From: Micromonospora sp. R77
GTDB taxonomy: Bacteria; Actinomycetota; Actinomycetes; Mycobacteriales; Micromonosporaceae
Assembly: GCF_022747945.1 (NCBI RefSeq)
Contig: NZ_JALDST010000001.1
Location: forward strand, 6,324,001-6,388,000
Length of the DNA stretch: 64,000 bases
Direction of reading: 5' to 3'
Position numbers and translations under genes: made by a program. Positions within the stretch are counted from its first letter, which is position 1; each line of letters begins with the position of its first letter. Below, one piece after another: positions 511 through 63,476 of the stretch. Under the pieces are notes generated by a model. That model had not been told where the DNA came from. It worked only from the letters and a program-made list of their open reading frames with translations, and ran no database searches.

Positions 511-547
511 TACTATCGCGAAACATACGAGGATAGTATTTGCGAAC
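511..547. promoter_or_regulatory. Divergent promoter/operator with inverted repeat
   Basis: This AT-rich island in a 74-bp divergent gap contains TACTATC (511-517) and GATAGTA (532-538) as a perfect 7-bp inverted repeat around ATACGAG (525-531), followed by TTTGCGAA. GATAGT can serve as a -10 hexamer on both strands. The string CGAGGATAGT-TTT-CGA recurs almost unchanged at 5073-5090. It probably controls both the flavoprotein to the left and the methyltransferase to the right. Confidence 0.55.
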
Positions 548-574
548 ACTTTGAAACACTGCCTCGGAGGTCTG

Positions 575-1651
575 ATGACCGAGTCCCACGTGTTCGCCAT
601 GCGGATGTGGAAGAACCTCCTCGCCACGCAGGAACTGCTGTCGGTCTACCTCGGGGTCAAGCTCGGCCTGTACGACGCCATGGCCGACGCCGGCACGCCG
701 ATGACCCCCGCCGACCTGGCCCGTGCCGCCGGGATCGACCCCCGGTACGCCCGGGAGTGGCTGGAACAGCAGGCGGTGACGGCGGTCGTCGAGGTCGCCG
801 GGGCGCACCGCGACGGCGAACAGCGGACCTACCGCCTGCCCGACGGGCACGCCCGGGTGCTGCGTACCTCCGACGACCCGATGTCGATGGCCGCGCTGGC
901 CGTCCTGCCGCTGGGCGGCATCGCCGCCGCGCTACCGGCGCTCCTGGCGGCCTACCGCACCGGGGCGGGCGTCCCCGACGACGTGTTCGGCGACGACTGG
1001 CGCGACGGGCACTCGGGGGCGAACCGCTCGCTCTTCGCCCACGACCTGGCCGGCTGGATCCGCGAGAAGCTGCCCGACGTGCACGCCGCGCTCGGCGAGC
1101 CGGGCCGCCGCATCGCCGACGTGGCCTGCGGCACCGGCTGGTCCAGCATCGCGCTGGCCCGCGCCTACCCCCGGGCGCACGTACACGGGCTGGACCTCGA
1201 CGCGGCGGCGCTGGTCGCCGCGGAGAAGAACGCGGTGGACGCCGGGCTGCGCGACCGGATCGGCCTGGAGGTACGCGACGCGGCCGACCCGGCGCTGGCC
1301 GGCGAGTACGACCTGGTCTGCCTCTTCGACGCCCTGCACGAGATGGCCCGGCCGGTCGAGGTGCTGCGGGCCTGCCGGCAGCTGCGCGCGCCGGGCGGGA
1401 CGGTGTTGCTGATGGATGCGAAGGTGGCCCCCACGTTCACCGCGCCGGGCGACGACGTGGAGCGGTTCCAGTACGGCACCAGCGTGCTGCACTGCCTGCC
1501 CGCCGCCCGCGCGGCGGCCGACTCGACCGGGACCGGCACGGTGCTGCGCCCGAACATGGTGCGGGACCTGGCGCTGCGGGCCGGCTTCGGTGGGGTGGCG
1601 GTGGTCAACGTGGGGGACCGGTTCCACCGGATGTACCGCCTGCTGGACTGA
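575..1651 (+). CDS. SAM-dependent methyltransferase with winged-helix N-terminus
   Basis: A 358-residue class I methyltransferase. The ATG at 575 follows a strong ribosome site (CGGAGG, 565-570). Residues about 15-75 look like the dimerising winged-helix segment of small-molecule methyltransferases (LGLYDAMADAG, then DLARAAGIDPRYAREWLE). The SAM motif I is IADVACGTGWSSIALA near residue 190, with a later acidic LDLD. A typical catalytic His/Glu pair of O-methyltransferases is not obvious, so O-, N- or C-methylation is open. It is a single-gene unit ended by the hairpin at 1662-1696. It is probably a tailoring enzyme of the surrounding pathway. Confidence 0.8.
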   Translation: MTESHVFAMRMWKNLLATQELLSVYLGVKLGLYDAMADAGTPMTPADLARAAGIDPRYAREWLEQQAVTAVVEVAGAHRDGEQRTYRLPDGHARVLRTSDDPMSMAALAVLPLGGIAAALPALLAAYRTGAGVPDDVFGDDWRDGHSGANRSLFAHDLAGWIREKLPDVHAALGEPGRRIADVACGTGWSSIALARAYPRAHVHGLDLDAAALVAAEKNAVDAGLRDRIGLEVRDAADPALAGEYDLVCLFDALHEMARPVEVLRACRQLRAPGGTVLLMDAKVAPTFTAPGDDVERFQYGTSVLHCLPAARAAADSTGTGTVLRPNMVRDLALRAGFGGVAVVNVGDRFHRMYRLLD

Positions 1652-1661
1652 GCCGCGAACG

Positions 1662-1696
1662 GCGACGGGCGGGGGCCGTCGGCCCCCGCCCGTCGC
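1662..1696. terminator. Bidirectional intrinsic terminator hairpin
   Basis: A perfect 16-bp inverted repeat (GCGACGGGCGGGGGCC and its complement) with a 3-nt loop lies between the convergent methyltransferase and carrier-protein genes. It has no U-tract, as is common in high-GC actinomycetes. Confidence 0.7.
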
Positions 1697-1706
1697 TCCG
1701 TCGGTC

Positions 1707-1991: not shown

Positions 1992-2033
1992 GACGAGTCT
2001 CCTCGGATCGGGTGTCGCACGGGTCGGAAAGGG

Positions 2034-3694: not shown

Positions 3695-3736
3695 CAATGG
3701 TCCCTTCCGCAAGCACCCGGCACTTGGCTTCTCTGC

Positions 3737-3760
3737 TATATGCGAGCGTTTGCGAGTATG
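3737..3760. promoter_or_regulatory. Operator-like element upstream of LLM operon
   Basis: The 99-bp gap between two minus-strand genes contains TATATGCGAG and TTTGCGAGTATG, with TGCGAG at 3741 and 3751, exactly 10 bp apart on one helix face. AGCGTTTGCGAGTAT matches the element upstream of the P450 at 31.16 kb when that is read on the opposite strand. Confidence 0.45.
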
Positions 3761-3793
3761 TGCTCAGAGGTTTGCAGGCGGTCGCGGAACTTG

Positions 3794-5068
3794 TCAATAG
3801 GCGTGACTGACCCGGGACAGCCGGAGCCCGGGCTCGGCCGCCACGGCGGTGGCCAGTTCGACGTACCCGGCCAGGAAGTCGGCCGCCGCGGTGCCGTCGC
3901 CGGCCTGGAACAACACCGCCTGCAGACGCTGCTCACCCACCGGGGCGAGGGCCAGCTCGAACGGGAACCGACTGCCGATCTCCGTGGGCACCACCAGTTC
4001 GAAGTGGACGTCGCCCGCGCTCAACCGGTGCCGTACCGGGGTCATCACGTTGAACATCACGTCGTCGGCCCGCCCACCCCCGGTGTCCACCAGGTCCCCG
4101 GGCAGCAGCTGGAACGGCAGCTCCTGGTGGGTGAACGCGCCGATCACCGTGCCGTGCACCTCGCGGAGCAGATCGGTGAACCGGTGCGCCCGCCCGGGAC
4201 GCGCGCGCAGCAGCACCATGCCCGCCAGCAGACCCACCGTCTCGCGCAGCTCCGGCCGGTCGCGGTTGGCGAACATCGAGGCCACCGCCAGGTCGTCCTG
4301 GTCGGTCGTCCGGTACAGCTGGGCGTGGAAGAGCGCGAGCAGCACCGCGAACATGGTGGTCCGCTCCCGCAGGGCCAGCTCCCGTAACGTGGTCACGGTG
4401 GTGGCCGGCAGGTCGGCGGCGACCGACCGGCTCGCCCCCTCGGTGATGCCCAGCGCGTCGAGCCGGGGCACCCGGGCCCCGGCGAGCTGGCGTCGCCAGT
4501 ACTGCTGGTGGCGGCCGAGCCGGTCGGTGCCGAGCATTTCCTGCTGGGCCCGGGCGAAGCGGGCCGCGGACCAGCCCGGTGCGGGCAGGGTCGCGCTCCC
4601 GCCGGCCGCCCGGTCGTAGCAGGCGACCAGGTCGCGCAGCAGGATGCCGGTGGACCAGGCGTCGGTGACCAGGTGGTGCAGGTTCAGGCAGAGCAGGTGC
4701 TCGTCCGGGCCCTGCCGCCAGACGGTGACCCGGGCCGGCCACCGCTCCGGATCGATCCGGGTGCGCAGCTCGGCGGTGAGCGCCTCGGTCGCCGCCTGCG
4801 CGGAGGCGACCTCGTGCCAGGTCACCTCGGGCTCGCCGGGCGGGTGGACGCGCTGCACCAGGCGGGCGCCCCGGCCGTGGAAGGTGGTCCGCAGCGACTC
4901 GTGCCGCGCGGCGAGCGCGCCGAGCGCGGTGTGCAGCCGGTCGGGGTCCAGCGGCCCGGTGAGCCGGCAGACCACCGGGCAGTTCAACGCTCCGAAGTCC
5001 TCGCGGTAGTGCTTGATCATCCACAGCAGCCGCTGGGAGACCGACGCTCGTGTTTCGGTTGTTTCCAC
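3794..5068 (-). CDS. Free-standing NRPS condensation domain
   Basis: About 424 residues consisting of one complete C domain and nothing else. The C1-like start is ASVSQRLLWM, and the catalytic motif is HHLVTDAWS (HHxxxDxxS intact). The later RDRPELRETVG and the substrate-channel motif HQELPFQLL are also in place. GTG 5068 is chosen as start; the frame also opens at a GTG at 5101, which would run through the operator-like DNA. There is no clear ribosome site, and a leaderless start after GACTAT is possible. Such discrete C domains usually join two carrier-bound partners or release a product by amide or ester formation. A homologue lies at 31203-32468. Confidence 0.87.
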   Translation of the reverse strand: METTETRASVSQRLLWMIKHYREDFGALNCPVVCRLTGPLDPDRLHTALGALAARHESLRTTFHGRGARLVQRVHPPGEPEVTWHEVASAQAATEALTAELRTRIDPERWPARVTVWRQGPDEHLLCLNLHHLVTDAWSTGILLRDLVACYDRAAGGSATLPAPGWSAARFARAQQEMLGTDRLGRHQQYWRRQLAGARVPRLDALGITEGASRSVAADLPATTVTTLRELALRERTTMFAVLLALFHAQLYRTTDQDDLAVASMFANRDRPELRETVGLLAGMVLLRARPGRAHRFTDLLREVHGTVIGAFTHQELPFQLLPGDLVDTGGGRADDVMFNVMTPVRHRLSAGDVHFELVVPTEIGSRFPFELALAPVGEQRLQAVLFQAGDGTAAADFLAGYVELATAVAAEPGLRLSRVSHAY

Positions 5069-5070
5069 AA

Positions 5071-5118
5071 CGCGAGGATAGTCTTTACGAGCCTTGGCCA
5101 CTACTGTCTACGAGTATG
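5071..5118. promoter_or_regulatory. Divergent operator/promoter, leaderless start
   Basis: CGAGGATAGTCTTTACGAG (5073-5091) repeats the element at 528-545 with few changes, and a second TACGAG lies at 5109-5114. TACTGT (5102-5107) is a possible -10 that ends only 8 nt before the ATG at 5116, suggesting a leaderless transcript for the diiron protein. It also faces the condensation-domain gene on the left. Confidence 0.5.
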
Positions 5119-7097: not shown

Positions 7098-7104
7098 CCG
7101 GCAG

Positions 7105-7131
7105 GCCGCGCCCCCGCTGCCGGGGCGCGGC
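7105..7131. terminator. Bidirectional terminator hairpin
   Basis: GCCGCGCCCC and its complement form a 10-bp stem with a 7-nt loop between the convergent methyltransferase (ends 7097) and DDAH-like gene (ends 7132). Confidence 0.6.
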
Positions 7132-7902
7132 TCAAGGCGCCGGGATCAGCACGCTCAGGCAGGTGACGCAGCCCTCCAGCTTCTCGTACTCACTGATGTC
7201 GACGACGACCGGCGTGAAGCCGAGCTCGGCCACCAGCGCCGCGGTGCGCGGCGCCGACGCGGCCAGCAGCACGAGATCGTCCCCCAGCGGTACGACGTGG
7301 CAGCCGGCCTCCTCGTCGACCGCGCGCACCGGCCGCCCGAGCGCGTCCGCGTCGAACAGGTCCGGCAGCGCGAGGAGGGTGCCGTCCGGCAGCGCCGTCA
7401 CGGCCGATTTGAGGTGCAGCACCTCGCGCAGCGGGACCGGGACCACGGTGCGCCCGCGGGACGCCAGGTGGGCGCGGAGCTGGTCGACACCCGCGTCGTC
7501 GGTCCGGCCGCCCCGGCCCACGTACACCGTGGTGCCGACCTGCAGCACGTCGCCGCCGTCCAGCGTGCCGGGCACCTCGACCCGGACGACCTCCAACCCG
7601 GCCTCGCGTACCGCCTTCTCCGCGCCGGGCAGCTCCGGGCGGCGTTCCGGCGCACCCGGCCGGCTGAGCACCGCCAGCCCGTCGCAGACCACGACGGTGT
7701 CCTCGACGAACACCGCGTCGGGGCACTGGTCAGCCGGGTCGACCTCGCGCACCTGCCAGCCGGCGTCGGCGAGCGCCGCCCGGTACGCCGCGTGCTGCCG
7801 CCGGGCGAGCGCGACGTCCACGTCGCTGCGCTCGATGTGGGTGACCAGCCCGTCGGCCAACCGGTCGCCGGGGCGCCGGACCAGGGCGATGCCTCGCGTC
7901 AT
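7132..7902 (-). CDS. Dimethylarginine dimethylaminohydrolase-like amidinohydrolase
   Basis: 256 residues with the DDAH pattern: DAVFVEDTVVV (substrate-binding Asp/Glu near residue 65), VPGTLDGGDVLQVG, the catalytic His in HLKSAVT, and the nucleophilic Cys in EKLEGCVTCLSVL at the C-terminus. Enzymes of this fold cleave guanidino C-N bonds, giving citrulline and dimethylamine from dimethylarginine. It is the last gene of a unit with the PPTase, a VOC protein and a P450, though a 66-bp gap separates it from the P450. It could be a resident metabolic gene or a pathway hydrolase; no arginine-activating module is visible in the window. Confidence 0.85.
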   Translation of the reverse strand: MTRGIALVRRPGDRLADGLVTHIERSDVDVALARRQHAAYRAALADAGWQVREVDPADQCPDAVFVEDTVVVCDGLAVLSRPGAPERRPELPGAEKAVREAGLEVVRVEVPGTLDGGDVLQVGTTVYVGRGGRTDDAGVDQLRAHLASRGRTVVPVPLREVLHLKSAVTALPDGTLLALPDLFDADALGRPVRAVDEEAGCHVVPLGDDLVLLAASAPRTAALVAELGFTPVVVDISEYEKLEGCVTCLSVLIPAP

Positions 7903-7968
7903 GCCGCCAGTCTGCCCGCCCGTGCCGGCAGGGTTCAAGGTCCACCCGCGGCCGGCCGGACGCGGCCG

Positions 7969-9168
7969 TCAGGCCGGGGTCAGGGCGAGCGGGACGGTCG
8001 CGTACGCCCGGAACGGGGTGTCCTGCTCGCGCACCGCGGGGCCGGCCGGTTCGATCGCCGTGGTGCGCCGCAGCATCCACTCGAACACCACCTGCGCCTC
8101 GGTGCGGGCCAGGAACGCGCCGAGGCAGAGGTGCCCGCCGCCGCCGAAGGTCACGTGCTGGTTCGGGGTGCGCCCGACGTCCAGCCGCGCGGGATCGGGG
8201 TGCACGGTCTCGTCGTGGTTGGCCGAGCCCAGCATGAGCACCAGGACCCGCCCGGCGCGGATGGTCCGCGACCCGATCCGTACCGGCTCCCGGACCAGCC
8301 GCGCGGTGCCCTGGATCGGCGCCTCGAAGCGCAGGAACTCCTCCACCGCCGACGGCACCAGCGACGGGTCCGCGCGCAGCCGGCGCAGCTCGTCCGGAAA
8401 GCGCATCAGCGCGGCGAAGCCGTTGGTGATCAGGTGCACGGTGGTCTCGAAACCGGCGAAGAAGGAGAACACCGTGTTGTCCACGATCTCGTCGTGGGTG
8501 AGCCGGTCGCCGCCGTCCTCGGCCCGCAGCAGCGCGGAGAGCAGGTCGTCGCCGGGCTCGGCCCGCCGCTGGTCGAGCAGCGACCCGATGTACGACCGCA
8601 GCCAGGTCACCGAGTCGTGGGCGTTCGCCCGGTCCCGCTCCGGCACGATGGCGCTGAACGCCCGGCCGAGGCGCATCGCGTGCCGCCGCACGTCGTCGTG
8701 CGCGGCCGGCGGGATGCCCATCAGCTCGGAGATCACCAGCACCGGCAGCGGATACGCCAGGTCGTTGACGATGTCCGAGTAGCCGCTGGCCAGCCCCGGC
8801 GCCATCAGCTCCTCGACGAGCTTCTCCATGTAGGTCCGCAGCCGGCGCACCACGGCCGGGGTGAAGGCGCCGCTCATCAGCCGGCGCAACCGGACGTGGT
8901 CCGGCGGGTCGCGGTAGAGCATGATCCGGCCGAAGAAGTCACCGGCCGGGCCTGCGCCCACCGACATCTGGTGGTACGCCTCGGGGAACTCGCTGCCCAG
9001 CCGCGGGTCCTTCTGCAACGCCACCACGTCGGCGTGCCGGGTGACCCCCCAGCTGCCGGGGCCGAACCGGCACAGCGGCCCGGCCGCCCGCAGCCGCGAA
9101 TAGGTCGGGTACGGGTCCTCCCGTACCGCGGGGTCGAGGGCATCGAAACGAGGAGGCAGACCGTCCAT
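7969..9168 (-). CDS. Cytochrome P450
   Basis: 399 residues from ATG 9168. The I-helix oxygen motif is AGFETT, ExxR lies in EFLRFEAP, and the haem loop FGGGGHLCLG gives the Cys ligand. It has the size of a soluble class I actinobacterial P450 and needs a ferredoxin such as that at 45863-46057. It shares AGFET and the RTPN-QH-x-FG region with the P450s at 29910 and 40997, which makes these three probable paralogues. An operator-like element lies upstream. The substrate is unknown. Confidence 0.93.
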   Translation of the reverse strand: MDGLPPRFDALDPAVREDPYPTYSRLRAAGPLCRFGPGSWGVTRHADVVALQKDPRLGSEFPEAYHQMSVGAGPAGDFFGRIMLYRDPPDHVRLRRLMSGAFTPAVVRRLRTYMEKLVEELMAPGLASGYSDIVNDLAYPLPVLVISELMGIPPAAHDDVRRHAMRLGRAFSAIVPERDRANAHDSVTWLRSYIGSLLDQRRAEPGDDLLSALLRAEDGGDRLTHDEIVDNTVFSFFAGFETTVHLITNGFAALMRFPDELRRLRADPSLVPSAVEEFLRFEAPIQGTARLVREPVRIGSRTIRAGRVLVLMLGSANHDETVHPDPARLDVGRTPNQHVTFGGGGHLCLGAFLARTEAQVVFEWMLRRTTAIEPAGPAVREQDTPFRAYATVPLALTPA

Positions 9169-9207
9169 GCCCGTCAGTCTGGGACGCGAGCGCGTCTTCG
9201 GGCAAGT

Positions 9208-9230
9208 GTCTGCGAGTGTTTACTGGTCTT
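9208..9230. promoter_or_regulatory. Operator-like element before P450
   Basis: GCAAGTGTCTGCGAGTGTTTACTGG lies in the 51-bp gap upstream of the P450 and overlaps the end of the VOC gene. CGAGTGTTT is shared with 45826-45834 and, on the other strand, with 38393-38403. The P450 and DDAH-like genes may have their own promoter here. Confidence 0.35.
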
Positions 9231-10354: not shown

Positions 10355-10393
10355 CCGCGAGCTTGTATTTACTTGTATTCGAACTAGTATCTG
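10355..10393. promoter_or_regulatory. Operator region between PPTase and NRPS genes
   Basis: CGCGAGCTTGTAT (10357-10368) is the same palindrome as at 48431-48443 with one arm degenerate. CTTGTAT repeats at 10362 and 10372, 10 bp apart. TTTACTTG-TA-TTCG-AA-CTAGTATC (10368-10392) recurs at 63455-63476. GATACT read on the minus strand is a possible -10 for the PPTase gene. It probably controls the main NRPS operon as well. Confidence 0.6.
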
Positions 10394-21921: not shown

Positions 21922-22913
21922 TCGGCCTGCTCGGCCCCACCGGGGCGGTCGGCACCGCGGCCGCCGCCCACCTGGCCGGCTGGACCACCTCGCCGGTCCG
22001 GCTCGGCGCGCGCCGGCCACGAGCCGGGATGGTGCCGGTCGACGTGGACGACCCGGCCGCGCTGGCCGCGTTCTGCCGGGGCTGCACGGTGGTGCTGAAC
22101 TGCGCCGGACCGGCGTTCCGGATCGAGCGCCCAGGTGGCCGAGGCCGCCTTCGCCGCAGGCGCGGACTACGTGGACGCGGCCGGCGACGACGACCTGGCC
22201 GCGCAGCTGGCCGGAGCTGGCGCCGGACCGGGTCATGGTGATCTCGGCGGGCCTGATGCAGGGGCTCAGCGCTGCTGCCCGGCTGCTGGCGGCGGCCGGC
22301 CCGGTCCGCCGGCTCGCCGGACACGTCGGCGGTCGGGACCGCTTCACCACCACCGCCGCCGAGGACTACCTGCGCAGCGGCTTCGGTCAGGCCGGTGTCG
22401 CGCTGGCCGGTGGGGTGGTCGTCGACCGTCCGGTGCGGACCGACGCCGAGCTGCCGTTCTGCCCGGAGCCGGGCACCGCGGTGCCTACCTGAGCACCGAA
22501 CTGCGCCGGGTCGCGGACACCCTCGGCGCGCCCGACGTGGATGGTGCTCGCTGTTCACCAGGCCCGCACCTGGGGGCGGCGCTGCGCCAGCCGTCGGACG
22601 CGGCGGCCCTGGTACGGGCGGCCGACCTCGACATGTTCGGCCACCAGCCGTACCAGATGATCGTCGTCGAGGCCGACGGCGCGCGCCGCGCTGCTGCGCG
22701 GGTGCGGCGCCAGCGACTGACCGGCGCGTTCGCGGCGCTGACCGCGACCGCGGTGGCCGTGGCGAGGTGCCGACCGGCGTGCACCACGCCGGCGAGGTGC
22801 TGGACCCCGTGGCGTCCGCCCGCCGGCTGGCCGAGGCCCCGGCGGTGACCGAACTGACCGTGCTGAACGCTGGTGCGTACGCGTCCGGCGGTTACCTGGA
22901 GGAGACGCTGTGA
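21918..22913 (+). CDS. Saccharopine-dehydrogenase-like NAD(P) protein (multiple frameshifts)
   Basis: About 331 residues when pieced from three frames. The start MIGLLGPTGAVGTAAAAHL is a GxxGxxG nucleotide-binding loop, followed by VVLNCAGP and VAEAAFAAGADYVDAAGDD, typical of saccharopine dehydrogenase/trans-acting enoyl-reductase-like proteins. Later parts include MVISAGLMQGLS, FGHQPYQMIVVEADG and VPTGVHHAGEVLDP. The frame changes near 22127, 22212, 22487, 22540, 22690 and 22765. ATG 21918 overlaps the NRPS stop and the stop overlaps the GTG of the imine reductase, so coupling is conserved despite the breaks. The role is probably a reduction or dehydrogenation during or after heterocycle assembly; the substrate is unknown. 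Confidence 0.65.
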
Positions 22914-24043
22914 CCGCACGTCCGAAGGTCGTGGTCTGTGGCACCCGGTTCGGCCAGGTGTACCTCGAGGCCTTCCGCAACCCCGAACTGCCGTTCGAGC
23001 TGGCGGGGGTGCTCGCCCAGGGCAGCGAGAGGTCCCGGGCCTGCGCCCGCCGCTACGACGCCCCGCTGTACACCGACCCGGCGCAGCTGCCCGACGACAT
23101 CGAGCTGGCCTGCGTGGTGATCCGCGGCGGCCTGCTCGGCGGGCACGGCTCGGCGCTGGCCCGGACGCTGATGGGTCGGGGCATCCACGTGCTGCAGGAA
23201 CACCCGGTGCACCACGACGAGCTGGCCGAGAACCTGCGGACCGCCCGGCGGGCCAAGGTCGTCTACCAGCTGAACCCGTTCTACACCAACACCGCGCCGG
23301 TCCGCCGGTTCGTCGCCGCCGCCCAGGAGCTGCTGCGCCGGCAGAAGCCGCTCTACATCGACGCGGCCTGCGGGTTCCAGCTCGCGTACTCACTGCTGGA
23401 CATCCTCGGCCAGGCGCTCGGCGGGGTCCGGCCCTGGAGCTTCGGGGAACTGCCCCCACTCGCCCCCGAGGTGCGCGACGGCACCGAACTGGACTTCCCG
23501 TTCCGCAGCCTGGACGGCACCCTGGCGGGCGTGCCGATCACGCTGCGGGTGCAGAACCAGATGGACCCGGCCGACCCGGACAACTACGCACACCTGATGC
23601 ACCGGATCAGCATCGGCACCGAGGCCGGCAACCTCACCCTGGTCAGCACGCACGGGCCGACGGTCTGGTCGGCGCGGCCGGACTTCCCGCGCGAGGTGGC
23701 CGACCCGGCGGCCAGCCCGCACTACGCCTGCGCCGTGGACGACGCCGACGCGCCCAGCGCGGTGGTCCTCGGCCCGGCGGAGGTGCCCTCCTACCGGCAC
23801 GTGTTCCGCAGCATCTGGCCGGCCGGCATCGCGTACGCGGTGGCCGGCCTGCACCGGGCGGCGCAGGAGGGGCAGGACCCGCTGCGCCGCGGGCAGTACC
23901 ATCTGTCCCTGTGCAAGCTGTGGCAGGACCTGACCCTGCGGCTGGGCCCACCGGAGCTGCTCACCTCGCAGCCGCCGCAGGCGTTCACCGGCGCGGACCT
24001 GAAGGCGCTGGCGGCGGCGGGGGACGAGGCGGCGGACCGGTGA
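22910..24043 (+). CDS. Thiazolinyl imine reductase (Irp3/PchG-like)
   Basis: 377 residues from GTG 22910. VVVCGTRFGQVYLEAF with ARGSERS-like LAQGSERSRACARRY is the signature of the Irp3/PchG family, which belongs to the Gfo/Idh/MocA fold. These NADPH enzymes reduce one carrier-bound thiazoline to thiazolidine in yersiniabactin and pyochelin. LQEHPVHHDEL carries the conserved His of the family. Its place directly after the Cy-containing synthetases strongly supports thiazoline chemistry, and the MT domain of the second NRPS could then N-methylate the ring nitrogen as in pyochelin. Full length, no break. Confidence 0.93.
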   Translation: MTARPKVVVCGTRFGQVYLEAFRNPELPFELAGVLAQGSERSRACARRYDAPLYTDPAQLPDDIELACVVIRGGLLGGHGSALARTLMGRGIHVLQEHPVHHDELAENLRTARRAKVVYQLNPFYTNTAPVRRFVAAAQELLRRQKPLYIDAACGFQLAYSLLDILGQALGGVRPWSFGELPPLAPEVRDGTELDFPFRSLDGTLAGVPITLRVQNQMDPADPDNYAHLMHRISIGTEAGNLTLVSTHGPTVWSARPDFPREVADPAASPHYACAVDDADAPSAVVLGPAEVPSYRHVFRSIWPAGIAYAVAGLHRAAQEGQDPLRRGQYHLSLCKLWQDLTLRLGPPELLTSQPPQAFTGADLKALAAAGDEAADR

Positions 24044-31150: not shown

Positions 31151-31170
31151 CTGATACGCGTAAACGCTAG
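31151..31170. promoter_or_regulatory. Operator-like element in divergent P450/C-domain gap
   Basis: GATACGCGTAAACGCTAG. On the opposite strand CTAGCGTTTACGCGTAT matches CTAGCGTTTGC at 45753-45763 (same reading) and AGCGTTTGCGAGTAT at 3745-3759. It lies between the P450 operon and the condensation-domain gene. Confidence 0.45.
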
Positions 31171-31202
31171 GAAAGGCTTGTTCGGGGCGGTAGCGTCGCG
31201 GC

Positions 31203-32883: not shown

Positions 32884-32914
32884 GAATACGAGAAGATACG
32901 CACACATACGAGCC
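32884..32914. promoter_or_regulatory. Triple 10-bp-phased ATACG operator
   Basis: ATACGAG (32886), ATACGCA (32896) and ATACGAG (32906) repeat with an exact 10-bp period in the 82-bp divergent gap, just before the ribosome site AAGGAG of the flavoprotein gene. This is the clearest tandem array of the shared element. Confidence 0.6.
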
Positions 32915-33991: not shown

Positions 33992-36900
33992 TCAGTCGTC
34001 GACCAGCTGCGCGACCGTGTCGGCGTTCTCCCCGGCGACCATCGCGAAGTGGTCACCGTCGAGGGTGTGGAAGCGCGCCCCGGGCAGGGTGGGCGCGGCC
34101 TGCCGCCAGGGGACCAGATAGCCCCCGGCCGGCCCCAGCGTGGTGCAGGACGCCTCCACCACGGTCACCGGCATCCCGTCCTCCGGCGTCACGGTGTATC
34201 TCAGCAGCGCCCGCGTGTTCGCCTCGAACGCGCTGAACATGTCCTGCAGCTCGGCGAAGCCGATGGACCGCAGCACGGACAGCTCCGGCGGCGGCGCCGA
34301 CCAGGTCCGCCGCAGCGCCTCCGTGGTGTCGGCGGGCAGCTCCGGCACCTGCACCGCGGTGCCGGCGAGATTGTGCAGGAAGGCCCGGACCAGGGTGACG
34401 CCGTCCGGGGTCGGGTTCGCCGGGTCCCGCAGCCACGGGTCGAGCAGCACGACCCGGCAGTCCCGGCCGTCCCGACGCAGGCGACGCCCCATCTCGTACG
34501 CCACCGTCCCGCCGAACGACCAGCCGGCCAGCCGGACCGGACCGTCGTCGAGGACCGGGGTCAGTTCGGCGAGGTAGCCCGCCGCCATCTCCTCGACGGC
34601 CCGGTGCCGCCGGGCACCGGCCGAGGTCAGGCCGTACACCCGGTAGCGGGCCCGCAGCCGGTCCACCAGCGGCCGGTAGCAGAGCAGGTCCCCGCCGACC
34701 GGGTGCACCAGGACGATCGGCGGCCCGTCCTGCTCGGCCAGCCGCACCAGCGCGGACTCGGCGGCGGTCACGCCCGTCTCGTCCAGCTGCGCGGCGAGGC
34801 GCTCCAGCGTGCCGGAGGTGTACAGGGTGGCCAGCGGCAGTCGGCGGCCCAGCCGCTGCTCGATCCGGTTCATCAGCTGCGCCGCCTGCAGCGAGCTGCC
34901 GCCCCGGGCGAAGAAGTCGTCCGTGTACGCCACCGAGGTCAGCCCGAGCAGCTCCGACCACAGCTGCGCCAGGACCTGCTCGGTCGGTGTGCGCGGCGTG
35001 GCGTCGACGGCCACCGGCGCCACCGTCGCCGACCGGGCCCGTTCGCCCAGCCGCCGGCGGTCCACCTTGCCGTTGCCGGTCAACGGGAGCCGGTCCAGCA
35101 CCTCGATCACGTGCGGCGTCATGTACGCCGGCAGGGTCGCGCCGAGGTGTTCCTTGAGCTGCGCGACGAGGTGTTCGGCCGCGGCGGTGGCGGCCACGAA
35201 GGCGACCAGCGTCACCCCGCGCCCGTCGTTGCGGGCGACCACCGCCGCGTCGGTGACCCTCGGGTGGCTCAGCAGGGCGGCCTCGACTTCGCCCAGCTCG
35301 ACCCGGAAGCCGTTCACCTTGACCTGCGGGTCCTCCCGACCGAGGAACTCCAGCGTGCCGTCCGGCCAGTAGCGCGCCCAGTCCCCGCTGCGGTAGATCC
35401 GCTCCGCGCTGCGGGGATGGGTGAGGAAGGTGGCCGCGGTCAGCTCCGCGTCCCCCAGGTATCCCTCGGCCAGCCCGTGCCCGGCGATGAACAGCTCACC
35501 GGGCACCCAGTCGGGACGGTCCGACATCCGACCGTCGAGGACCTGGAAGCGCTGGTTGCGCAGCGGGTATCCGTAGGGGATGGAGACCCAGTGCTCGGGC
35601 ACCTCGACGGGCACCGGGAAGTAGTTCGACCAGATCGACGCCTCGGTGGCGCCGCCCAGGCTCACGCAGGCGACGTTCGGCGCGATCGCGGACACCTCCG
35701 ACCCGAGGTGGACCGGCACCCAGTCGCCGCTGACCATGGCCAGTCGCAGCTCGGGCAGGGGCGGCCGGTCACCGGCGCGGACGAAGTCCGTGAACATCAG
35801 CAGGTACGCCGGCACGCTGTTCCAGACCGTGACCCCGTACGTCTGGCACAGGTCGTACAGGTGGGTGACCTCCCGTTCGTGTCCGGCGTCGGGGATCACC
35901 AGGGTGCCGCCCGCGGCGAAGGTGCCGAAGGTGTCCCACACCGACAGGTCGAAGGTGAAGTCGGAGACCGCCAGCACCCGGTCCCGGGTGCCGACGCCGA
36001 ACCGCTCGTTGACGTCCACGATGGTGTTGGCCGCGCTGTCGTGGGCGATCATCACGCCCTTCGGCGTGCCGGTGGTCCCGGAGGTGAAGATGACGTACGC
36101 CAGCGCCCGGCTGGGCACCGGCACGGTGACCCGGTCCGCGCCGTCGTGCCGGGCCATCGCGGTGGCGATGTCCACGACGTGCACCCCGTCGGCCTCGGGC
36201 TCGGCCTCGTTGGTGCGGTCGGACAGCAGCAGGCGCAGGCCGGCGACGTCGGCCACCTGTTCCCGCCGGTGCCGGGGCCACTCCGGGGAGATCGGCACGT
36301 ACGCCGCCCCGGCCATCAGCACCCCGAGCAGGGCGGCGGTCTGCCGGGGGCCGCGCACCGCCCGCACGCCGACGAGGTCGCCGGGGCGTACCCCCTCGGC
36401 GATCAGGTCGGCCGCGATCGCGTTGGCCTGGTCCTGCAGCCGGCCGTAGCTGATCTCGTCGCCGCCGGCGATCACCGCGGTCCGCTCCGGGTTCCGCTCG
36501 GCCTGCTTGCGGAACAGGTCGTGCAGGGTCACCATCGGCACCGGTGCGGCGGTGTCGTTGACGGTGCGGCGGATGGTCAGCTGGCGGGCCGGGGTCAGGT
36601 CGAAGACCGTCTCCTGCCAGGCGTCGTCGTCGGTGGCCAGCCGGGTGAGCAGCATCCGGTACGCGGCGAACATCTCGTCGATCATGCCGGCCGGGTAGAG
36701 GTCGTCGGCGCTGTCCCAGGTGGTCACCAGGGCGTTGTCCGCCACGTACACCTGGTGGTCCAGGGCCACCTGCGGGGTGCGGACCCGGCCCTCCAGGCGT
36801 TGCCATCCGAGGTGTTCGAGGAACACGCCCTCACCGGCGTCGCCGACGCCGAGCATGCTGGTGAACACCACGGGCATCGACGCGTGACGCGAGTTGCCGT

Positions 36901-37936
36901 GCAGTTGGTTCAGCTCACGGATCACCGACACACCGCTGAACGCGGAGTGTTCCAGGTCCCGCAGCAACTGACGACGCCACGCCTTGGCGCGGGCGACGAA
37001 GGTGGACTCGGCTGCGCCGGCTGCGCATTCGACCAGCACCGTGCTGCTGAAATTCCCGATGATCTTGTCGGCGTCGGGATGGAAGGGAGATCGTTCGCCG
37101 TACATCATGTTTATCGTGAAATCGGGATTCTTCGACCAGTGCCGCAGCACCTCGCAGAACGCGGTACCGAGCACCATGGTGCCGGTCATCCGGTTCTTCT
37201 TGATCCGTTCGGCGAGGCCGCTCCACTCGTTCGCCGGCATCCGGAAGACGCGCCGCACGAGCCGCGGGTCGGGGTTCCCGCTGAGTCGTCGGCGCGGCAG
37301 CTCCGGCGCCGCCGGCAACGTCTCGAGCCGGTCCATCCAGTATTTGCGGGCGACCGCGTAACTCTCCTCGTCCTTGCGCCGCTCGAAGTCCCGCCGGTAC
37401 TGCGGGAAGCTGTAGCGCAGCGGTGGCAGTGTCTCCCCGTCCAGCAGGGCGCGGAGCTCCTGGGCGAAGATCTCACCGGAGAATCCGTCCATGGCCAACA
37501 GTCGTCCGCACACCTGCACCACGAAGTGGTTGTCCAGCGCGTAGACCGCGACGTCGAACGGGGCGCGGCGGCCCAGGGGCGGGCCGGACCGGCAGATCCG
37601 GTCCCGACCGTCGGTGATCACCCGTCGGCAGGTGGCCTCCGGCAGTCCCCGCAGGATGCGGTAGGTCAGGGGGACCGGGAGGTTGTCCTGGATGTGCAGC
37701 AGGCCGGCCTCGTCGAAGGTCGCCCGGAGCATCTCGTGGCGTTGCATCAACTGGTAGAGGGCATTGCTGAAGGCTTGCAGGTCCAGCCCGTGGCACGCGT
37801 ACTCCTCGTAGAAAAGCGCGGGTCCGCCGAGCTGGAAGTCGCCGATCTCGCCGAGCAGATACGCGTACTGGAGTTCGCTGAGGGGTGCAGTGATGGGGGG
37901 CGGCTCGTGTTCTTGCAGATCGGAAAGCAAATCCAT
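33992..37936 (-). CDS. NRPS: Cy-A-PCP-TE
   Basis: 1314 residues, intact. ATG 37936 has GGGAG 8 nt upstream; an upstream TTG is less likely. Cy4 covers about residues 20-460, but its core motif is RLLAMDGFS, that is R-x4-D-x2-S in place of DxxxxDxxS. The A domain (TSGTTGTPKG, core motif FTFDLSVWD) has pocket residues DLWNMSLIW by eye, cysteine-like except for Trp at the third position. PCP: GGSSLQAAQL. The TE has GWSFGGTVAYE and the terminal His in GDHFAMV, so it should be active. This synthetase is the only one in the window with a complete terminal TE and is the likely release module. Confidence 0.93.
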   Translation of the reverse strand: MDLLSDLQEHEPPPITAPLSELQYAYLLGEIGDFQLGGPALFYEEYACHGLDLQAFSNALYQLMQRHEMLRATFDEAGLLHIQDNLPVPLTYRILRGLPEATCRRVITDGRDRICRSGPPLGRRAPFDVAVYALDNHFVVQVCGRLLAMDGFSGEIFAQELRALLDGETLPPLRYSFPQYRRDFERRKDEESYAVARKYWMDRLETLPAAPELPRRRLSGNPDPRLVRRVFRMPANEWSGLAERIKKNRMTGTMVLGTAFCEVLRHWSKNPDFTINMMYGERSPFHPDADKIIGNFSSTVLVECAAGAAESTFVARAKAWRRQLLRDLEHSAFSGVSVIRELNQLHGNSRHASMPVVFTSMLGVGDAGEGVFLEHLGWQRLEGRVRTPQVALDHQVYVADNALVTTWDSADDLYPAGMIDEMFAAYRMLLTRLATDDDAWQETVFDLTPARQLTIRRTVNDTAAPVPMVTLHDLFRKQAERNPERTAVIAGGDEISYGRLQDQANAIAADLIAEGVRPGDLVGVRAVRGPRQTAALLGVLMAGAAYVPISPEWPRHRREQVADVAGLRLLLSDRTNEAEPEADGVHVVDIATAMARHDGADRVTVPVPSRALAYVIFTSGTTGTPKGVMIAHDSAANTIVDVNERFGVGTRDRVLAVSDFTFDLSVWDTFGTFAAGGTLVIPDAGHEREVTHLYDLCQTYGVTVWNSVPAYLLMFTDFVRAGDRPPLPELRLAMVSGDWVPVHLGSEVSAIAPNVACVSLGGATEASIWSNYFPVPVEVPEHWVSIPYGYPLRNQRFQVLDGRMSDRPDWVPGELFIAGHGLAEGYLGDAELTAATFLTHPRSAERIYRSGDWARYWPDGTLEFLGREDPQVKVNGFRVELGEVEAALLSHPRVTDAAVVARNDGRGVTLVAFVAATAAAEHLVAQLKEHLGATLPAYMTPHVIEVLDRLPLTGNGKVDRRRLGERARSATVAPVAVDATPRTPTEQVLAQLWSELLGLTSVAYTDDFFARGGSSLQAAQLMNRIEQRLGRRLPLATLYTSGTLERLAAQLDETGVTAAESALVRLAEQDGPPIVLVHPVGGDLLCYRPLVDRLRARYRVYGLTSAGARRHRAVEEMAAGYLAELTPVLDDGPVRLAGWSFGGTVAYEMGRRLRRDGRDCRVVLLDPWLRDPANPTPDGVTLVRAFLHNLAGTAVQVPELPADTTEALRRTWSAPPPELSVLRSIGFAELQDMFSAFEANTRALLRYTVTPEDGMPVTVVEASCTTLGPAGGYLVPWRQAAPTLPGARFHTLDGDHFAMVAGENADTVAQLVDD

Positions 37937-38358: not shown

Positions 38359-38392
38359 GGCGCCCCCTCGGTCGACGTCAGAAGCATGCTGT

Positions 38393-38435
38393 CAAACACT
38401 CGCATACACGAGCTACGCTAGCGCAGACACGAGAC
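38393..38435. promoter_or_regulatory. Operator-like element between PCP and MBL-fold genes
   Basis: CAAACACTCGCATACACGAGCTACGCTAGCGCAGACACGAGAC. ACACGAG occurs at 38406 and 38427, 21 bp apart, and the reverse complement begins with GCGAGTGTTTG as at 45826. The centre contains CTAGCG. It sits in a 139-bp divergent gap. Confidence 0.5.
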
Positions 38436-44056: not shown

Positions 44057-45756
44057 GACGACGCCAGGACGGTGTCGCCACCCCGCGCCGCCGGGACGTC
44101 CGGTCGCCGACGTACGCCGTCCGCCGCCCGCTGCGCGGCCAGCGCCCGACGGTCCACCTTGCCCACCGAGGTCTGCGGCAGCGCGTCGACCACGTCGAGG
44201 CGGTCCGGCAGCTTGTAGTCGGCCAGCCCCCGGTCGCGCAGCAGCGCGCGCACCTCGGCGAGGGTGGGTGCCGCGCCGTCGACGACCACCACCGCGCAGA
44301 CCTTCTCCCCGAGGCCGGCGTCCGGCACCGGCACCACGGCGGCGGCGCGGATCCGGTCGTGGGCGAGCAGGTGGGACTCCACCTCGTCGGCCACCACCTT
44401 CTCGCCGCCCCGGTTGATCACGTCCTTGATCCGGCCGGTGATGACCAGCTCGCCGGTCGGGGTGAGGCGGGCCAGGTCGCCGGTGCGCAGGAAGCCGTCG
44501 GCGGTGAACACCGTGCGGTTGTGCTCCGGCACCGCGTAGTAGCCGCGCAGCACGCACGGCCCGCGTACCAGCAGCTCGCCGATCTCACCGGCGGGCACCG
44601 GCCGGTCGTCGGCGTCCACCACCACCAGCTCGTCGTCCGGGCACATCGGCGTGCCCTGGGTGGTCGCCGCGAGCTCGTCGCCGTCGCCGGGCCGGGTGAA
44701 GCAGAGCAGTCCCTCGGCCATGCCGAACCACTGGGTCAGGGTCGCGCCCAGCACCGGCCGGACCGCCCGTCCGGTCTCCGGGTGCAGGACCGCGCCGCCC
44801 ACCTCGATGGTCACGCCGGTCAGGTCCGCGCCGAACAGCGGCCCGGTCTCCAGCCAGAGCGACAGCACCGCGGGCATCACCGTGGTGAGCCGGACGCGTT
44901 CCTGTCTGATCAGCGGGAACACCTCGTCCGGGCTGGGACTGGCGGCCAGCACGGCCCGACCACCGGCGCGGAGCGCACCCAGCACGCCGGGGCAGCCGAG
45001 GGCGGCGTTGTGCGCGACCGGCACGGCGGCCAGGTACGCGTCGTCCGCCCCGAAGCCCATCTCGGCCGCGGTGGCCCGCAGTTGGAACGCGTAGTCGTCG
45101 TGGGTGCGGGGGATCAGCTTGGGCAGGCCGGTGGTGCCCCCGGACAGCAGGAAGAACGCCACGTCGGACGGCTGCGGTCCGGCCAGCGGCCGGGGTGTCC
45201 CGCGCACCTGCGACCAGGCGGTGAACTCGCCCGGGTCACCGACGACCAGGACGTGCCGCAGCCCGGGGTGCGCGGCGCGTACCTGGGCGGCGAGGTCCCG
45301 GTAGTCGACGCCGACCCCGCGGTCCGTGGTGATCAGGGCGACCGCCTCGGCGTAGCCGGCGAGGTAGTCCAGTTCGGCCCGGCGGTGCGCGGGCAGGGCG
45401 AGGACCGGCAGCGCGCCGAGTCGGAACAGCGCCACGCAGGTGGTGACGAACTCGGGGCTGTTCGGCAGCTGCACGATCACCCGGTCGCCCCGGGCAATGC
45501 CGAGGTCGGCCAGGCCGGCGGCCAGCTCGTCGGCGCGGGTGTCGAGTTCGGCGTAGCTGTGCCGGCCGGTCCTGGTCACCACGGCGGTGCGTTGCGGGTC
45601 CCGCGCCTGCGGGCTCCAGTCGGGCCAGGGCCGCAGCAGGTCACCCAGCACCTCGCCGCGCCAGTAACCCTTGGCCCGGTAGCGGGCCGCGAATTCCGGC
45701 GGCCAAGCAGTGAAGCCTTCCACACGAACCTCCCGCGGAGCCGGATGTCGGCGCAA
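44053..45756 (-). CDS. Aryl-acid AMP ligase (DhbE/EntE/salicylate type)
   Basis: 567 residues, ATG 45756. WPPEFAARYRAKGYW at the N-terminus and LSGGTTGLPKLIPRTHDDY are hallmark motifs of 2,3-dihydroxybenzoate and salicylate adenylating enzymes; QWFGMAEGLL and GEKVVADEVESHL follow. Pocket motif AHNAALGCPG keeps the Asn but has Ala in place of Tyr and Cys in place of Ser. Cys at this place, and Leu after AEGL, are the salicylate-type choices as I recall from DhbE work. The natural partner is the ArCP at the N-terminus of the first NRPS. No salicylate synthase is in the window, so the aryl acid must come from elsewhere. Confidence 0.88.
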   Translation of the reverse strand: MRRHPAPREVRVEGFTAWPPEFAARYRAKGYWRGEVLGDLLRPWPDWSPQARDPQRTAVVTRTGRHSYAELDTRADELAAGLADLGIARGDRVIVQLPNSPEFVTTCVALFRLGALPVLALPAHRRAELDYLAGYAEAVALITTDRGVGVDYRDLAAQVRAAHPGLRHVLVVGDPGEFTAWSQVRGTPRPLAGPQPSDVAFFLLSGGTTGLPKLIPRTHDDYAFQLRATAAEMGFGADDAYLAAVPVAHNAALGCPGVLGALRAGGRAVLAASPSPDEVFPLIRQERVRLTTVMPAVLSLWLETGPLFGADLTGVTIEVGGAVLHPETGRAVRPVLGATLTQWFGMAEGLLCFTRPGDGDELAATTQGTPMCPDDELVVVDADDRPVPAGEIGELLVRGPCVLRGYYAVPEHNRTVFTADGFLRTGDLARLTPTGELVITGRIKDVINRGGEKVVADEVESHLLAHDRIRAAAVVPVPDAGLGEKVCAVVVVDGAAPTLAEVRALLRDRGLADYKLPDRLDVVDALPQTSVGKVDRRALAAQRAADGVRRRPDVPAARGGDTVLASS

Positions 45757-45836
45757 ACGCTAGACGAGGGTCTGTTCAAGATACAAGACTCTCTTGGCAC
45801 ATACGAGTCTCGTGTTTTCCAGATACGAGTGTTTGA
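45751..45836. promoter_or_regulatory. Compound operator in divergent AMP-ligase/ferredoxin gap
   Basis: The densest copy of the shared elements: GCAAACGCTAG (45753), ATACAAG (45781), ATACGAG (45801) forming ACGAGTCTCGT, and ATACGAGTGTTTGAC (45823). Spacings of 20 and 22 bp are near two helical turns. It overlaps the first codons of the AMP ligase on one side and precedes the ferredoxin-thiolase operon on the other. Confidence 0.6.
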
Positions 45837-48424: not shown

Positions 48425-48455
48425 CCAACATACGAGCTTGTATGTCGAAGTGTTT
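48425..48455. promoter_or_regulatory. Near-perfect palindromic operator before type II PKS operon
   Basis: ACATACGAGCTTGTATGT (48428-48445) is an 18-bp inverted repeat with a single mismatched pair, followed by CGAAGTGTTT. It defines the two half-sites ATACGAG and CTTGTAT seen elsewhere singly. It is in the 117-bp gap between the CoA transferase and the ketoreductase. Confidence 0.6.
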
Positions 48456-57593: not shown

Positions 57594-57595
57594 CC

Positions 57596-60377: not shown

Positions 60378-60413
60378 CGCCCGCACCACCTTTTCTGGGG
60401 AGAACTCTGCCGT

Positions 60414-61088: not shown

Positions 61089-62401
61089 ACGTGTTCACCG
61101 AATGCTCGCCGTCACCCCAGTTCGTGGGCATGTGGCGGATGCCGGGCGACACCACCGGCACCGGGTACCGCTCGCTGGAGCACTGGGCGGCGGTCGCCCG
61201 CAAGCTCGAGGACGCCTGCATCGACGCGCTCTTCTTCGCCGACATCCACGGCACCTACGACGTCTACCGGGGCTCCTGGGAGACCGCGGTACGCCAGGGT
61301 GTGCAGATCCCGTCGATCGACCCGATGCCGGTGGTGGCGGCGCTGGCCATGGTCACCCGGAACCTCGGTTTCGCGGTCACCTACTCGACCACCTACCACC
61401 AGCCGTACGAGTGCGCCCGGCTCTTCTCCTCGCTGGACCACCTGACCCGGGGCCGGATCGGCTGGAACATCGTCACCTCCTATCTCCGCTCGGCCAGCGA
61501 CAACGGGCTGGGGGAGTACCTCGACCACGACCTGCGCTACGACCGCGCGGACGAGTACCTGACGGTGGTCCGCCGGCTGTGGGAGGAGAGCTGGGACGAC
61601 GACGCGGTGCGCCGGGACGCGGCGGCGGACGTCTTCGCCGACCCGTCCGCCGTGCGGCAGATCGACCACGCCGGGACCTGGTTCACCGTCCGCGGGCCGC
61701 ACCAGTGCGAGCCGTCGCCGCAGCGCACCCCGGTGCTCTACCAGGCCGGCGCCTCCGGCCGGGGCCTGGCGTTCGCGGCCCGGCACGCCGAGGTGGTCTT
61801 CCTGACCCTGGCGGACCCGGAGAGCGGCGCGGGTGCCGTCCGCAAGCTGCGTGACCAGGTCGCCGCCGCCGGCCGGGACCCGGCCGGGGTGAAGGCGCTG
61901 CAGGGCAGCATGGTGCTCATCGGACGGGACCGGGCGGAGGCCAAGGCGAAGGCCGACCTCTACCACCGGCTGTGGAGCACCGAGGGGCAGCTCGCCAAGT
62001 GGTGCGGCTGGATGGACGTGGACCTGGCGGCCTTTCCCGACGAGACGCCGGTCGACGAGGTGAAGAACCAGGGCAGCCAGTCCTTCCTGGGGTTCCTGCG
62101 CGGGCTCACGCCCGACCGGGAGTGGACCGTCGGCGACGTGAAGTATCTGATCTCCCGCCCCCGCCGGGCCCGCCGCAACGCGCCGGTCACCCTCTTCGGC
62201 ACCGCCGAGGAGGTCGCCGATCGGATGGAGCAGTGGCGCGACGTGGCGGGCGTGGACGGGTTCAACCTGATCCCGTGCCCGCCGACCGGCGGCGTCGACG
62301 ACATCTGCGACCTGCTCGTCCCGGAGTTGCAGCGGCGGGGGATGTTCCGTACCGCGTACCGGCCCGGCGAGACGCTGCGGGAGCGTTACTTCGCGGCGTA
62401 G
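61079..62401 (+). CDS. LLM-class FMNH2-dependent monooxygenase (NtaA/SnaA/DszA-like)
   Basis: 440 residues, ATG 61079. GYRSLEHWAAVARKLEDACIDALFFADI, TYSTTYHQPYECARLFSSLDHLTRGRIGWNIVTS and VLYQAGASGRGLAFAARHAE are the signatures of the NtaA/DszA family. Members oxidise C-S or C-N centres with reduced flavin from a partner reductase; in this locus only the reductase at 2034-2600 is seen. Its link with the peroxiredoxin-like gene hints at sulfur oxidation. The 3' end overlaps the opposing LLM gene by 16 bp. Confidence 0.93.
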   Translation: MHLNVFTECSPSPQFVGMWRMPGDTTGTGYRSLEHWAAVARKLEDACIDALFFADIHGTYDVYRGSWETAVRQGVQIPSIDPMPVVAALAMVTRNLGFAVTYSTTYHQPYECARLFSSLDHLTRGRIGWNIVTSYLRSASDNGLGEYLDHDLRYDRADEYLTVVRRLWEESWDDDAVRRDAAADVFADPSAVRQIDHAGTWFTVRGPHQCEPSPQRTPVLYQAGASGRGLAFAARHAEVVFLTLADPESGAGAVRKLRDQVAAAGRDPAGVKALQGSMVLIGRDRAEAKAKADLYHRLWSTEGQLAKWCGWMDVDLAAFPDETPVDEVKNQGSQSFLGFLRGLTPDREWTVGDVKYLISRPRRARRNAPVTLFGTAEEVADRMEQWRDVAGVDGFNLIPCPPTGGVDDICDLLVPELQRRGMFRTAYRPGETLRERYFAA

Positions 62402-63429
62402 GCGCGTACCTGTTCGACCAGCCGGACCCGGTCGGCGTGCGTGCGGGCGATCGGCGTCACGTGCAGGGTCGTGACGCCGGCCGCCGCGCACGCCGCCACC
62501 CGGTCGGCCACCCAGCCGGCCGGACCGATCAGGCAGGTGGCGGCCACCAGTTCCTCCGGGACCGCCGCGGCCGCCTCGTCCCGGCGGCCGGCCAGGTAGA
62601 GCTCCTGCACGGTGGCCGCCGCCTCGGCGAAGCCGTACCGGACGGCCAGCCGGTTGTAGAAGTTGCGGTTCCGCGCCCCCATCCCGCCCAGGTAGAGGGC
62701 CAGCTCCCGGCGGGCGATCCGGCGCAGGTGCCGCACGTCGTCGCCGATCGCGAGCGGCATCCGCACCGCGACGTCCAGCGGCGGCAGCGCCGGGTCCCGG
62801 CGGGCCAGGCCGGCGGCCAGCGGCCCGCCCCAGACGGCGTCGGCCTGCTCCGGTACGAAGAAGGCCGGCTGCCAACCCTCCGCCGCCTCGGCGGCCAGCT
62901 CCACGTTGCGCGGGCCGATCGCGGCGAGGCTGATCGGGATCCGCTCCCGCACCGGCTTGTTGATCAGCTTCAGCGGCCGGGCCAGGCCGCTGCCCTGCCC
63001 CTCGGGCAGCGGGATCTGGTAGTGGCGGCCCCGGTAAACCACCGGTTCCCGGCGCCACACCATCCGGCAGATGTCGATGACCTCCCGGGTGCGCTCCACC
63101 GGCGCGTCGTACGGCACCCCGTGGAACCCCTCGATCACCTGTGGCCCGGAGGCGCCCAGCCCGAGTTCGAAGCGCCCGTCGGAGACGAAGTCCAGTCCGG
63201 CGGCGGTGGTGGCGATCAGCGTCGGGGTACGGGTGTAGAGCTGCATCACCGCCGAGGCGATGGTCAGCGTCCTGGTCCGGGCCGCGAGGTAGCCGAGCTG
63301 GCTGACCGCGTCGAAGGTGTACAGCTCGGCCACGGTCACCATGTCCAGCCCGGCCGCCTCGTAGTCGGCCAGCTCGTCGACCGACTCGCGGAAACCCTTC
63401 GTGTAGCTCAGCGCCATCCCGACCCGCAC
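62386..63429 (-). CDS. LLM-class (F420- or flavin-dependent) oxidoreductase
   Basis: 347 residues from GTG 63429, with an in-frame ATG at 63417. The luciferase-like barrel is clear: ALSYTKGFRESVDELADYEAAGLDMVTVAEL, FVSDGRFELGLGASGPQVIEGFHG and GPAGWVADRVAACAAAGVTTLHV. The pattern GLGASGPQV is usual in F420-dependent members of the family in actinobacteria. It is the only gene in its direction at this end and shares the gap with the Crp/Fnr regulator. Possible roles are reduction of an enone or imine, or flavin-dependent oxidation. Confidence 0.87.
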   Translation of the reverse strand: MRVGMALSYTKGFRESVDELADYEAAGLDMVTVAELYTFDAVSQLGYLAARTRTLTIASAVMQLYTRTPTLIATTAAGLDFVSDGRFELGLGASGPQVIEGFHGVPYDAPVERTREVIDICRMVWRREPVVYRGRHYQIPLPEGQGSGLARPLKLINKPVRERIPISLAAIGPRNVELAAEAAEGWQPAFFVPEQADAVWGGPLAAGLARRDPALPPLDVAVRMPLAIGDDVRHLRRIARRELALYLGGMGARNRNFYNRLAVRYGFAEAAATVQELYLAGRRDEAAAAVPEELVAATCLIGPAGWVADRVAACAAAGVTTLHVTPIARTHADRVRLVEQVRAYAAK

Positions 63430-63453
63430 GACTATCTCCTCGTCTTCACTGGT

Positions 63454-63476
63454 CTTTACTTGCCTTCGCTAGTATC
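63454..63476. promoter_or_regulatory. Operator-like element between LLM and Crp/Fnr genes
   Basis: TTTACTTG-CC-TTCG-CTAGTATCC, almost the same string as at 10368-10392 in front of the PPTase and NRPS genes. Read on the minus strand, GGATACTAG could be the -10 region of the LLM gene. Its presence beside the regulator suggests autoregulation. Confidence 0.5.

Follow-up and report, generated by a model that had tools for sequence, protein, structure and literature searches.

Pathway-specific activators of the SARP family bind heptameric direct repeats that overlap the -35 region, and 10-bp repeating units are described at a secondary PimR operator (PMC10972967). Direct repeats are also bound by BldC, where the MerR-like winged helix-turn-helix (HTH) of a 68-residue protein recognizes 9-bp AT-rich repeats (PMC5859096). 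The subject of this report is a 64-kb stretch (the window; C1:6324001-6388000) of the 7.14-Mb genome of Micromonospora sp. R77 (G000), in which nonribosomal peptide synthetase (NRPS) genes lie together with a ketosynthase gene set that resembles a type II polyketide synthase (PKS), and where promoter gaps carry AT-rich repeats. These gaps appear to contain the operators of one pathway-specific regulon, with a heptamer close to AYACNMG repeated head to tail and P0002, a 163-aa protein encoded left of the window at -1134 to -643 (negative positions lie left of the window start), as its most likely reader; judged from sequence comparison, the probability of this reading is about 0.6. The arrays resemble the promoters controlled by ActII-ORF4, DnrI and PimR in their heptameric direct repeats, variable copy number, overlap with the -35 region and expected activation of the cluster (PMC10972967). 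With the BldC sites (PMC5859096), they share head-to-tail direct repeats of varying number and tracts lying one helical turn apart.

The sites listed in a preliminary description of this DNA are all present in the sequence, but the several motifs that it distinguished are one heptamer repeat written on either strand. CTTGTAT is the reverse of ATACAAG, and CTAGTATC is the reverse of GATACTAG. CTAGCGTTTRC corresponds to one register of the repeat (GYAAACGCTAG) read on the opposite strand. Exact ATACGAG occurs six times in the window, each time in a promoter gap, where 1.57 copies are expected, and one of 100 shuffles attained six copies. CTAGCGTTTRC has two exact copies and, with up to two mismatches allowed, 11 matches against 9.85 expected, which is the chance level. 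The predicted recognition unit is a heptamer approximating AYACNMG in tandem direct repeats, mostly spaced at 10 bp. For example, the 63.4-kb array reads ATACTAGCGA AGGCAAGTAA AGACCAGTGA AGACGAGGAG on the minus strand, while those at 32.9 kb (ATACGAGAAG ATACGCACAC ATACGAG) and 31.15 kb (ATACGCGTAA ACGCTAGGAA AGGCTTG) lie on the plus strand.

The 10-bp periodicity was absent from the earlier account and was found here. In a self-similarity measure that uses no motif model, applied to 13 hand-set gaps (1407 bp), lag 10 ranked top of 44 lags with z 3.7, the largest value of 300 shuffles being 3.59; a second, stricter window-count measure gave z 4.3 at lag 10, which is inside the shuffle range (99% 4.37, largest 4.91) and was reached by slightly more than 1% of shuffles. 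With automatic gap limits, the lag-10 z of the cluster itself was only 1.6, and that of three relatives pooled was 4.4. Taken singly, the related clusters (types A, B and C, described below; the window is of type A) gave 3.6 for G079, 1.8 for G056, 1.1 for G012 and 0.3 for G014, and the six type B genomes were negative. The periodicity is a signal of the group rather than of each genome. Among A[ACT]AC cores, 8 same-strand pairs at 10 bp were counted in the window's gaps, where shuffles gave 0.4; the relatives had 11 and their shuffles 1.2. Pairs at distance 2 are likewise frequent (9 against 2.5 in the window's gaps). A de novo motif search with unrestricted site number returned diffuse motifs. 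With a fixed site rate, the cluster scored above four shuffles at widths 8 and 12, one shuffle was higher at width 17 (141.7 vs 114.7), and a GC-repeat pattern won at width 22. Since the shuffles had fewer seeds than the real data (100 vs 300, and 80 vs 200 in a further set of motif runs), these comparisons favour the real data. The clear motif result came from the matrices of other species and not from the de novo search on the window itself.

A 20-bp matrix was trained solely on gaps of the homologous clusters in G079, G056 and G012, which are orthologous promoters and hence not independent by descent; outside the arrays, these promoters have diverged. It was scanned over about 0.93 Mb in all, roughly one-eighth of the genome, and the far gaps used for comparison number 279, taken from 34 stretches (680 kb) away from the locus. 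Scores above 11 bits were found in 11 of the 13 window gaps, which were set by hand and in part after the sites had been seen, compared to 3 of 279 far gaps, and at 13 bits the counts were 10 of 13 and 0 of 279. Under the automatic gap rule used for the background, 9 of 19 window gaps exceeded 11 bits, and the ten that failed are short (five of 31-42 bp), lie within operons or fall in NRPS genes split by the gene caller. This caller relies on codon usage, so that gene starts are approximate and parts of NRPS genes are split, and the automatic rule loses the arrays at 10.4 and 38.4 kb because split or missed gene calls make the gaps too long. Two hand-set gaps, at 9.65 and 38.0 kb, scored low. 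The repeats had been described as present in nearly every gap, which holds for the larger promoter gaps but not for these two, nor for short or within-operon gaps; the statement that they are almost the only AT-rich stretches is roughly right, the arrays coinciding with 10 of the 16 stretches below 55% GC.

The 184 kb that surround the window contain 51 strand-hits above 11 bits, of which 48 fall between -6.4 and +66.6 kb, five of them inside called genes. Across the whole genome, the exact two-unit pattern AYACNMGNNNAYACNMG has five matches, three of them in the regulon, and its reversed control has three; with one mismatch there are 108 matches against 71 for the control. Of the 108, 14 belong to the 73-kb span between -6.4 and +66.6 kb, although two of these, at -3.5 and -2.8 kb, appear to be chance matches. 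Matrix scan and whole-genome counts agree that one operator family is enriched at the locus. The repeats are rare in the sampled rest of the genome, and the original observation is confirmed in a stronger form than it was first described.

These scans also bear on whether the repeats, instead of being operators, might belong to the core promoters of an alternative sigma factor or be common to AT-rich promoters in general. ATACGAG or ATACAAG does lie near the start codons of some genes (32929, 10348), and TAGTAT-like hexamers overlap some units. Against this, copy number and unit spacing are variable (10, 12, 20 and 22 bp), only 3 of the 47 far gaps that are AT-rich (GC at most 0.65) score above 11 bits, and dinucleotide-shuffled versions of the window's own gaps do so in a mean of 1.57 of 13 (maximum 6), making such an origin highly improbable.

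Both the site listing and the matrix place arrays in a divergent gap at 0.5 kb (523..555, plus strand), in a gap at 3.7 kb before a luciferase-like monooxygenase gene (3730..3760, minus) and, as three decamers, before gene 32929 (32886..32912, plus). The matrix locates others in a divergent gap at 5.1 kb (5068..5117, no strand assigned), in the divergent gap between a phosphopantetheinyl transferase gene and the first NRPS gene (10359..10390, minus), in the gap that separates a carrier-protein-like gene on the minus strand from a beta-lactamase-fold gene on the plus strand (38386..38431, plus), between an AMP-binding ligase gene (minus) and ferredoxin and CoA-transferase genes (plus) (45753..45832, no strand assigned), and before the type II PKS-like genes from 48477 onwards (48430..48453, plus). 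The array before the P450 gene at 7969-9168 (9200..9229, minus) has units at -61, -51 and -41 from the start codon, and that at 31154..31183 (plus) has units at -49, -39 and -29 from a conserved ATG (31203). A ladder of four units at 10-bp spacing (63426..63475, minus) lies before gene 62386-63417, at -58, -48, -38 and -28 from its start, and before a Crp/Fnr-type gene. The locus does not end at the limits first given, as sites continue in two divergent promoter gaps outside the window, at -2.7 kb (-2736) between transporter and aldehyde dehydrogenase genes (score 15.5) and at +66.5 kb between DUF427 and monooxygenase genes (score 22.8). In addition, a strong two-unit site at -6389 (21.2 bits) comes directly after a plus-strand gene. 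The genes on either side of this 950-bp gap are convergent, so the site may not belong to a promoter; the caller may also have missed a gene there.

At 31.15 kb, the conserved ATG is preceded by TAGCGT at -12, which, given the unit positions, fits a leaderless transcript with the array over the -35 region. More generally, array units lie upstream of the -10 region, although -10 positions were assigned from TAnnnT and conservation alone and are not recognizable at every promoter. Where a conserved -10-like hexamer is present, the placement of units over -35 suggests an activator that would work in the style of SARP promoters. A SARP encoded elsewhere in the genome could be the reader, and what the SARP review describes (heptameric direct repeats over -35, 10-bp units at the secondary PimR operator) matches the arrays (PMC10972967). 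The genome has 13 BTAD matches, including a 260-aa SARP 24.9 kb left of the window, but none of the 13 lies inside the cluster. The best match to the nearby SARP in the 14 cluster-bearing genomes, among the matches listed, is 41%, whereas most cluster proteins are at about 45-95%. A SARP search of the fetched regions (E up to 0.001) gave one 30% match, to a large open reading frame about 3 kb beyond the right end of the G056 cluster. As a candidate, the 260-aa SARP (L003:15101-15883), which lies beside a large TPR-like protein, was rejected, since it is not conserved with the cluster. The repeat differs as well: the classical SARP unit is 11 bp, with a 4-bp spacer, while here the signal is at lag 10 and not 11, corresponding to a unit of 10 (7+3), and the type C unit is 7 (7+0). 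The cluster has no SARP gene, and a Pfam search (E up to 1) of P0001, which comprises 138 of the 163 residues of P0002, and of the type B protein gave no match to BTAD. A SARP reader is considered unlikely.

The gene set recurs in Micromonospora in three forms. Type A (G014, G079, G056 and G012) has the NRPS of 33992-37936 at 67-83% and is collinear with the window to the contig ends. Type B (G013, G120, G060, G043, G007 and G077) has this NRPS at 52-54%; its NRPS and PKS genes are those of the window but are arranged differently, and in type C (G027, G119, G045 and G072) some genes are absent and the remainder are in yet another order, although NRPS and type II PKS genes are still held together. 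Retention of both halves through rearrangement argues, independently of the operators, for one pathway. The original proposal of one regulator and one pathway is supported as regards one pathway rather than two adjacent clusters, but not as regards the regulator it named. Arrays occur in all three types, and sister genomes within a type are kin, so that counts per genome are not independent events. Unit spacing is mostly 10 bp in type A. In type C the arrays are built of heptamers resembling ATACGAG, and A[ACT]AC pairs stand at 7 bp (22, compared with 0.8 in shuffles). In type B the core is altered to ACACRACAC-like, with pairs at 7 bp (23 against 2.0) and 5 bp (20 against 2.2). Training on the diverged type C cluster of G119 gave a 7-bp matrix that placed 10 of the 13 window gaps above the 95th percentile of far gaps and a 9-bp matrix that placed 3, and two matrices from three pooled type C clusters placed 5 and 4. 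All four rank the window's gaps higher than far gaps (rank-test p < 1e-4).

The Crp/Fnr-type protein (63534..64211, plus, extending past the window end at 64000) had been proposed as the regulator, and it is the sole classical transcription factor among the window gene products scanned, which include some but not every small gene. It is conserved at 78-85% in the type A relatives G079, G056 and G012 (the G014 contig ends before the gene), and 10-bp spacing occurs only in type A, the type that possesses it. Nevertheless, no counterpart turned up in the type B and C regions that were fetched, which keep arrays, in type C with the same heptamer. Crp sites are two-fold, unlike these tandem repeats; TGTGA-N6-TCACA and GTGA-N6-TCAC are absent from the 1407 bp of gaps, and the loose form GTG-N8-CAC occurs once, about the background rate. 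The gene's own promoter bears one of the strongest arrays, so it looks like a target and is probably not the reader. Regulation of the arrays by this protein is quite improbable, and the earlier assignment is probably wrong. Right of the window, at 64292-65742, a 25-residue peptide reading frame is followed by a gene for a 426-residue membrane-protein-like product with a HEFAH motif and no Pfam match. Three type A relatives also keep this larger gene next to Crp/Fnr, and together the two resemble a small unit for peptide maturation.

P0002 follows the cluster where the Crp/Fnr-type protein does not. A protein search (E up to 0.001) yielded 78 family members including P0002, those with a source name being labelled hypothetical, uncharacterised or helix-turn-helix proteins, and 34 of 122 genus genomes have a match. 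In 14 of the 14 genomes with cluster and family member in one fetched region (G000, G079, G056 and G012 of type A, with the six of type B and four of type C listed above), a relative lies beside or inside the homologous cluster; the surroundings of the G065 member were covered for 1.5 kb only. Outside the genus, relatives flank related ketosynthase loci of Salinispora and Planotetraspora, and in total 9 of 80 such loci have one in the flanking DNA that was fetched. Differences in the regulator go with differences in the motif: type C, with the closer relatives (82-87 bits; 36-38% identity in the N-terminal domain), has ATACGAG, and type B, with the more distant ones (49-51 bits; 24-27%), has the changed motif. 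In the predicted structure of P0002, an N-terminal domain made up of three strands and one helix is joined through a disordered linker (71-109) to a C-terminal three-helix HTH, the last at a predicted local distance difference test (pLDDT) score of 91-94; fold matches are weak and mostly to generic HTH domains. The same genome encodes a paralogue (C1:5272582-5273028) within a cluster of PKS and glycosyltransferase genes, and the gap upstream of the paralogue gene contains ATACGAGATAG. A literature search that covered few subscription journals found no title on the P0002 family or this cluster, and absence from print is not claimed.

Unlike BldC, P0002 shows no significant MerR-type match and has an additional N-terminal domain; for the type B protein, the search gave HTH_17, a MerR/excisionase-like domain, with an E of 0.23 that does not reach the cut-off, and there was no match in NCBIfam. 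In layout, P0002 resembles Lsr2 and similar nucleoid proteins. Lsr2 has an N-terminal beta/alpha domain, a flexible linker and a small C-terminal DNA-binding domain. A profile comparison of the two, with only two Lsr2 rows, gave an hhalign probability of 0.1% and no visible relation.

Several observations weigh against P0002 as the reader of an array regulon. Its own upstream region has no clear array, the nearest site (-2736) lying before the preceding gene, and the remainder of the paralogue's cluster shows none, with no motif there clearly beating shuffles. In G014, G005 and G039, which are outside the 14-genome count, the relative is on a different contig from the NRPS match. The local tblastn identities of type B (37%) and type C (36-39%) relatives are similar. 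The N-terminal domain model is of low confidence, and poor when modelled alone, and the HTH call consists of the structural model and a sub-cut-off Pfam score (HTH_23, 18.5 vs 24.6 bits). In each of the four type C clusters that were fetched, a LAL-type LuxR regulator (for example, L198:441-3239) adjoins the P0002 relative; a search of the fetched type A and B regions for this regulator (E up to 1e-10) found none. Finally, the promoters of 32929, 45863, 48477 and 63417 lack TAnnnT at the expected place.

If P0002 is the reader, its HTH domain would bind each heptamer, and the N-terminal beta domain would hold several copies together across the flexible linker. Heptamers mostly 10 bp apart would place neighbouring units on the same helix face. 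The simplest mechanism joining these facts would be a multimer in which every heptamer is occupied by one HTH and the linker absorbs changes of spacing.

The genes of the window include an NRPS part with condensation, adenylation, methyltransferase, thioesterase and docking-domain matches, and the ketosynthase set comes with carrier protein, reductase and dehydratase-like genes. Several genes for P450s, luciferase-like monooxygenases, acyl ligases and methyltransferases are also present in the window, and searches for RNA families and tRNAs found none there. A thiazolinyl imine reductase-like (Irp3) gene (22910-24043, plus), together with an NRPS match to the TubC docking domain, suggests that a peptide of the thiazoline type is coupled to a type II PKS chain. 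An arginine-deiminase-like gene (7132-7902, minus) has no counterpart in the 10 fetched type A and B clusters or the 4 type C clusters, and is probably a recent insertion.

Tentatively, and with somewhat more doubt than confidence, P0002 may found an unrecognised family of pathway-specific regulators in Micromonosporaceae and related actinobacteria, in which an oligomerising N-terminal domain and a disordered linker of about 40 residues carry HTHs able to recognize one heptamer whose spacing can vary (10 bp for type A, 7 for type C, 7 and 5 for type B), the spacing and letters drifting between sister pathways while the regulator stays with its cluster. If true, the arrays would delimit the pathway from sequence alone, including genes beyond the window, and one small protein could raise expression of the pathway. 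There would also be three natural variants of one operator grammar to compare, for a regulator family now named hypothetical or, at most, helix-turn-helix in the databases searched.

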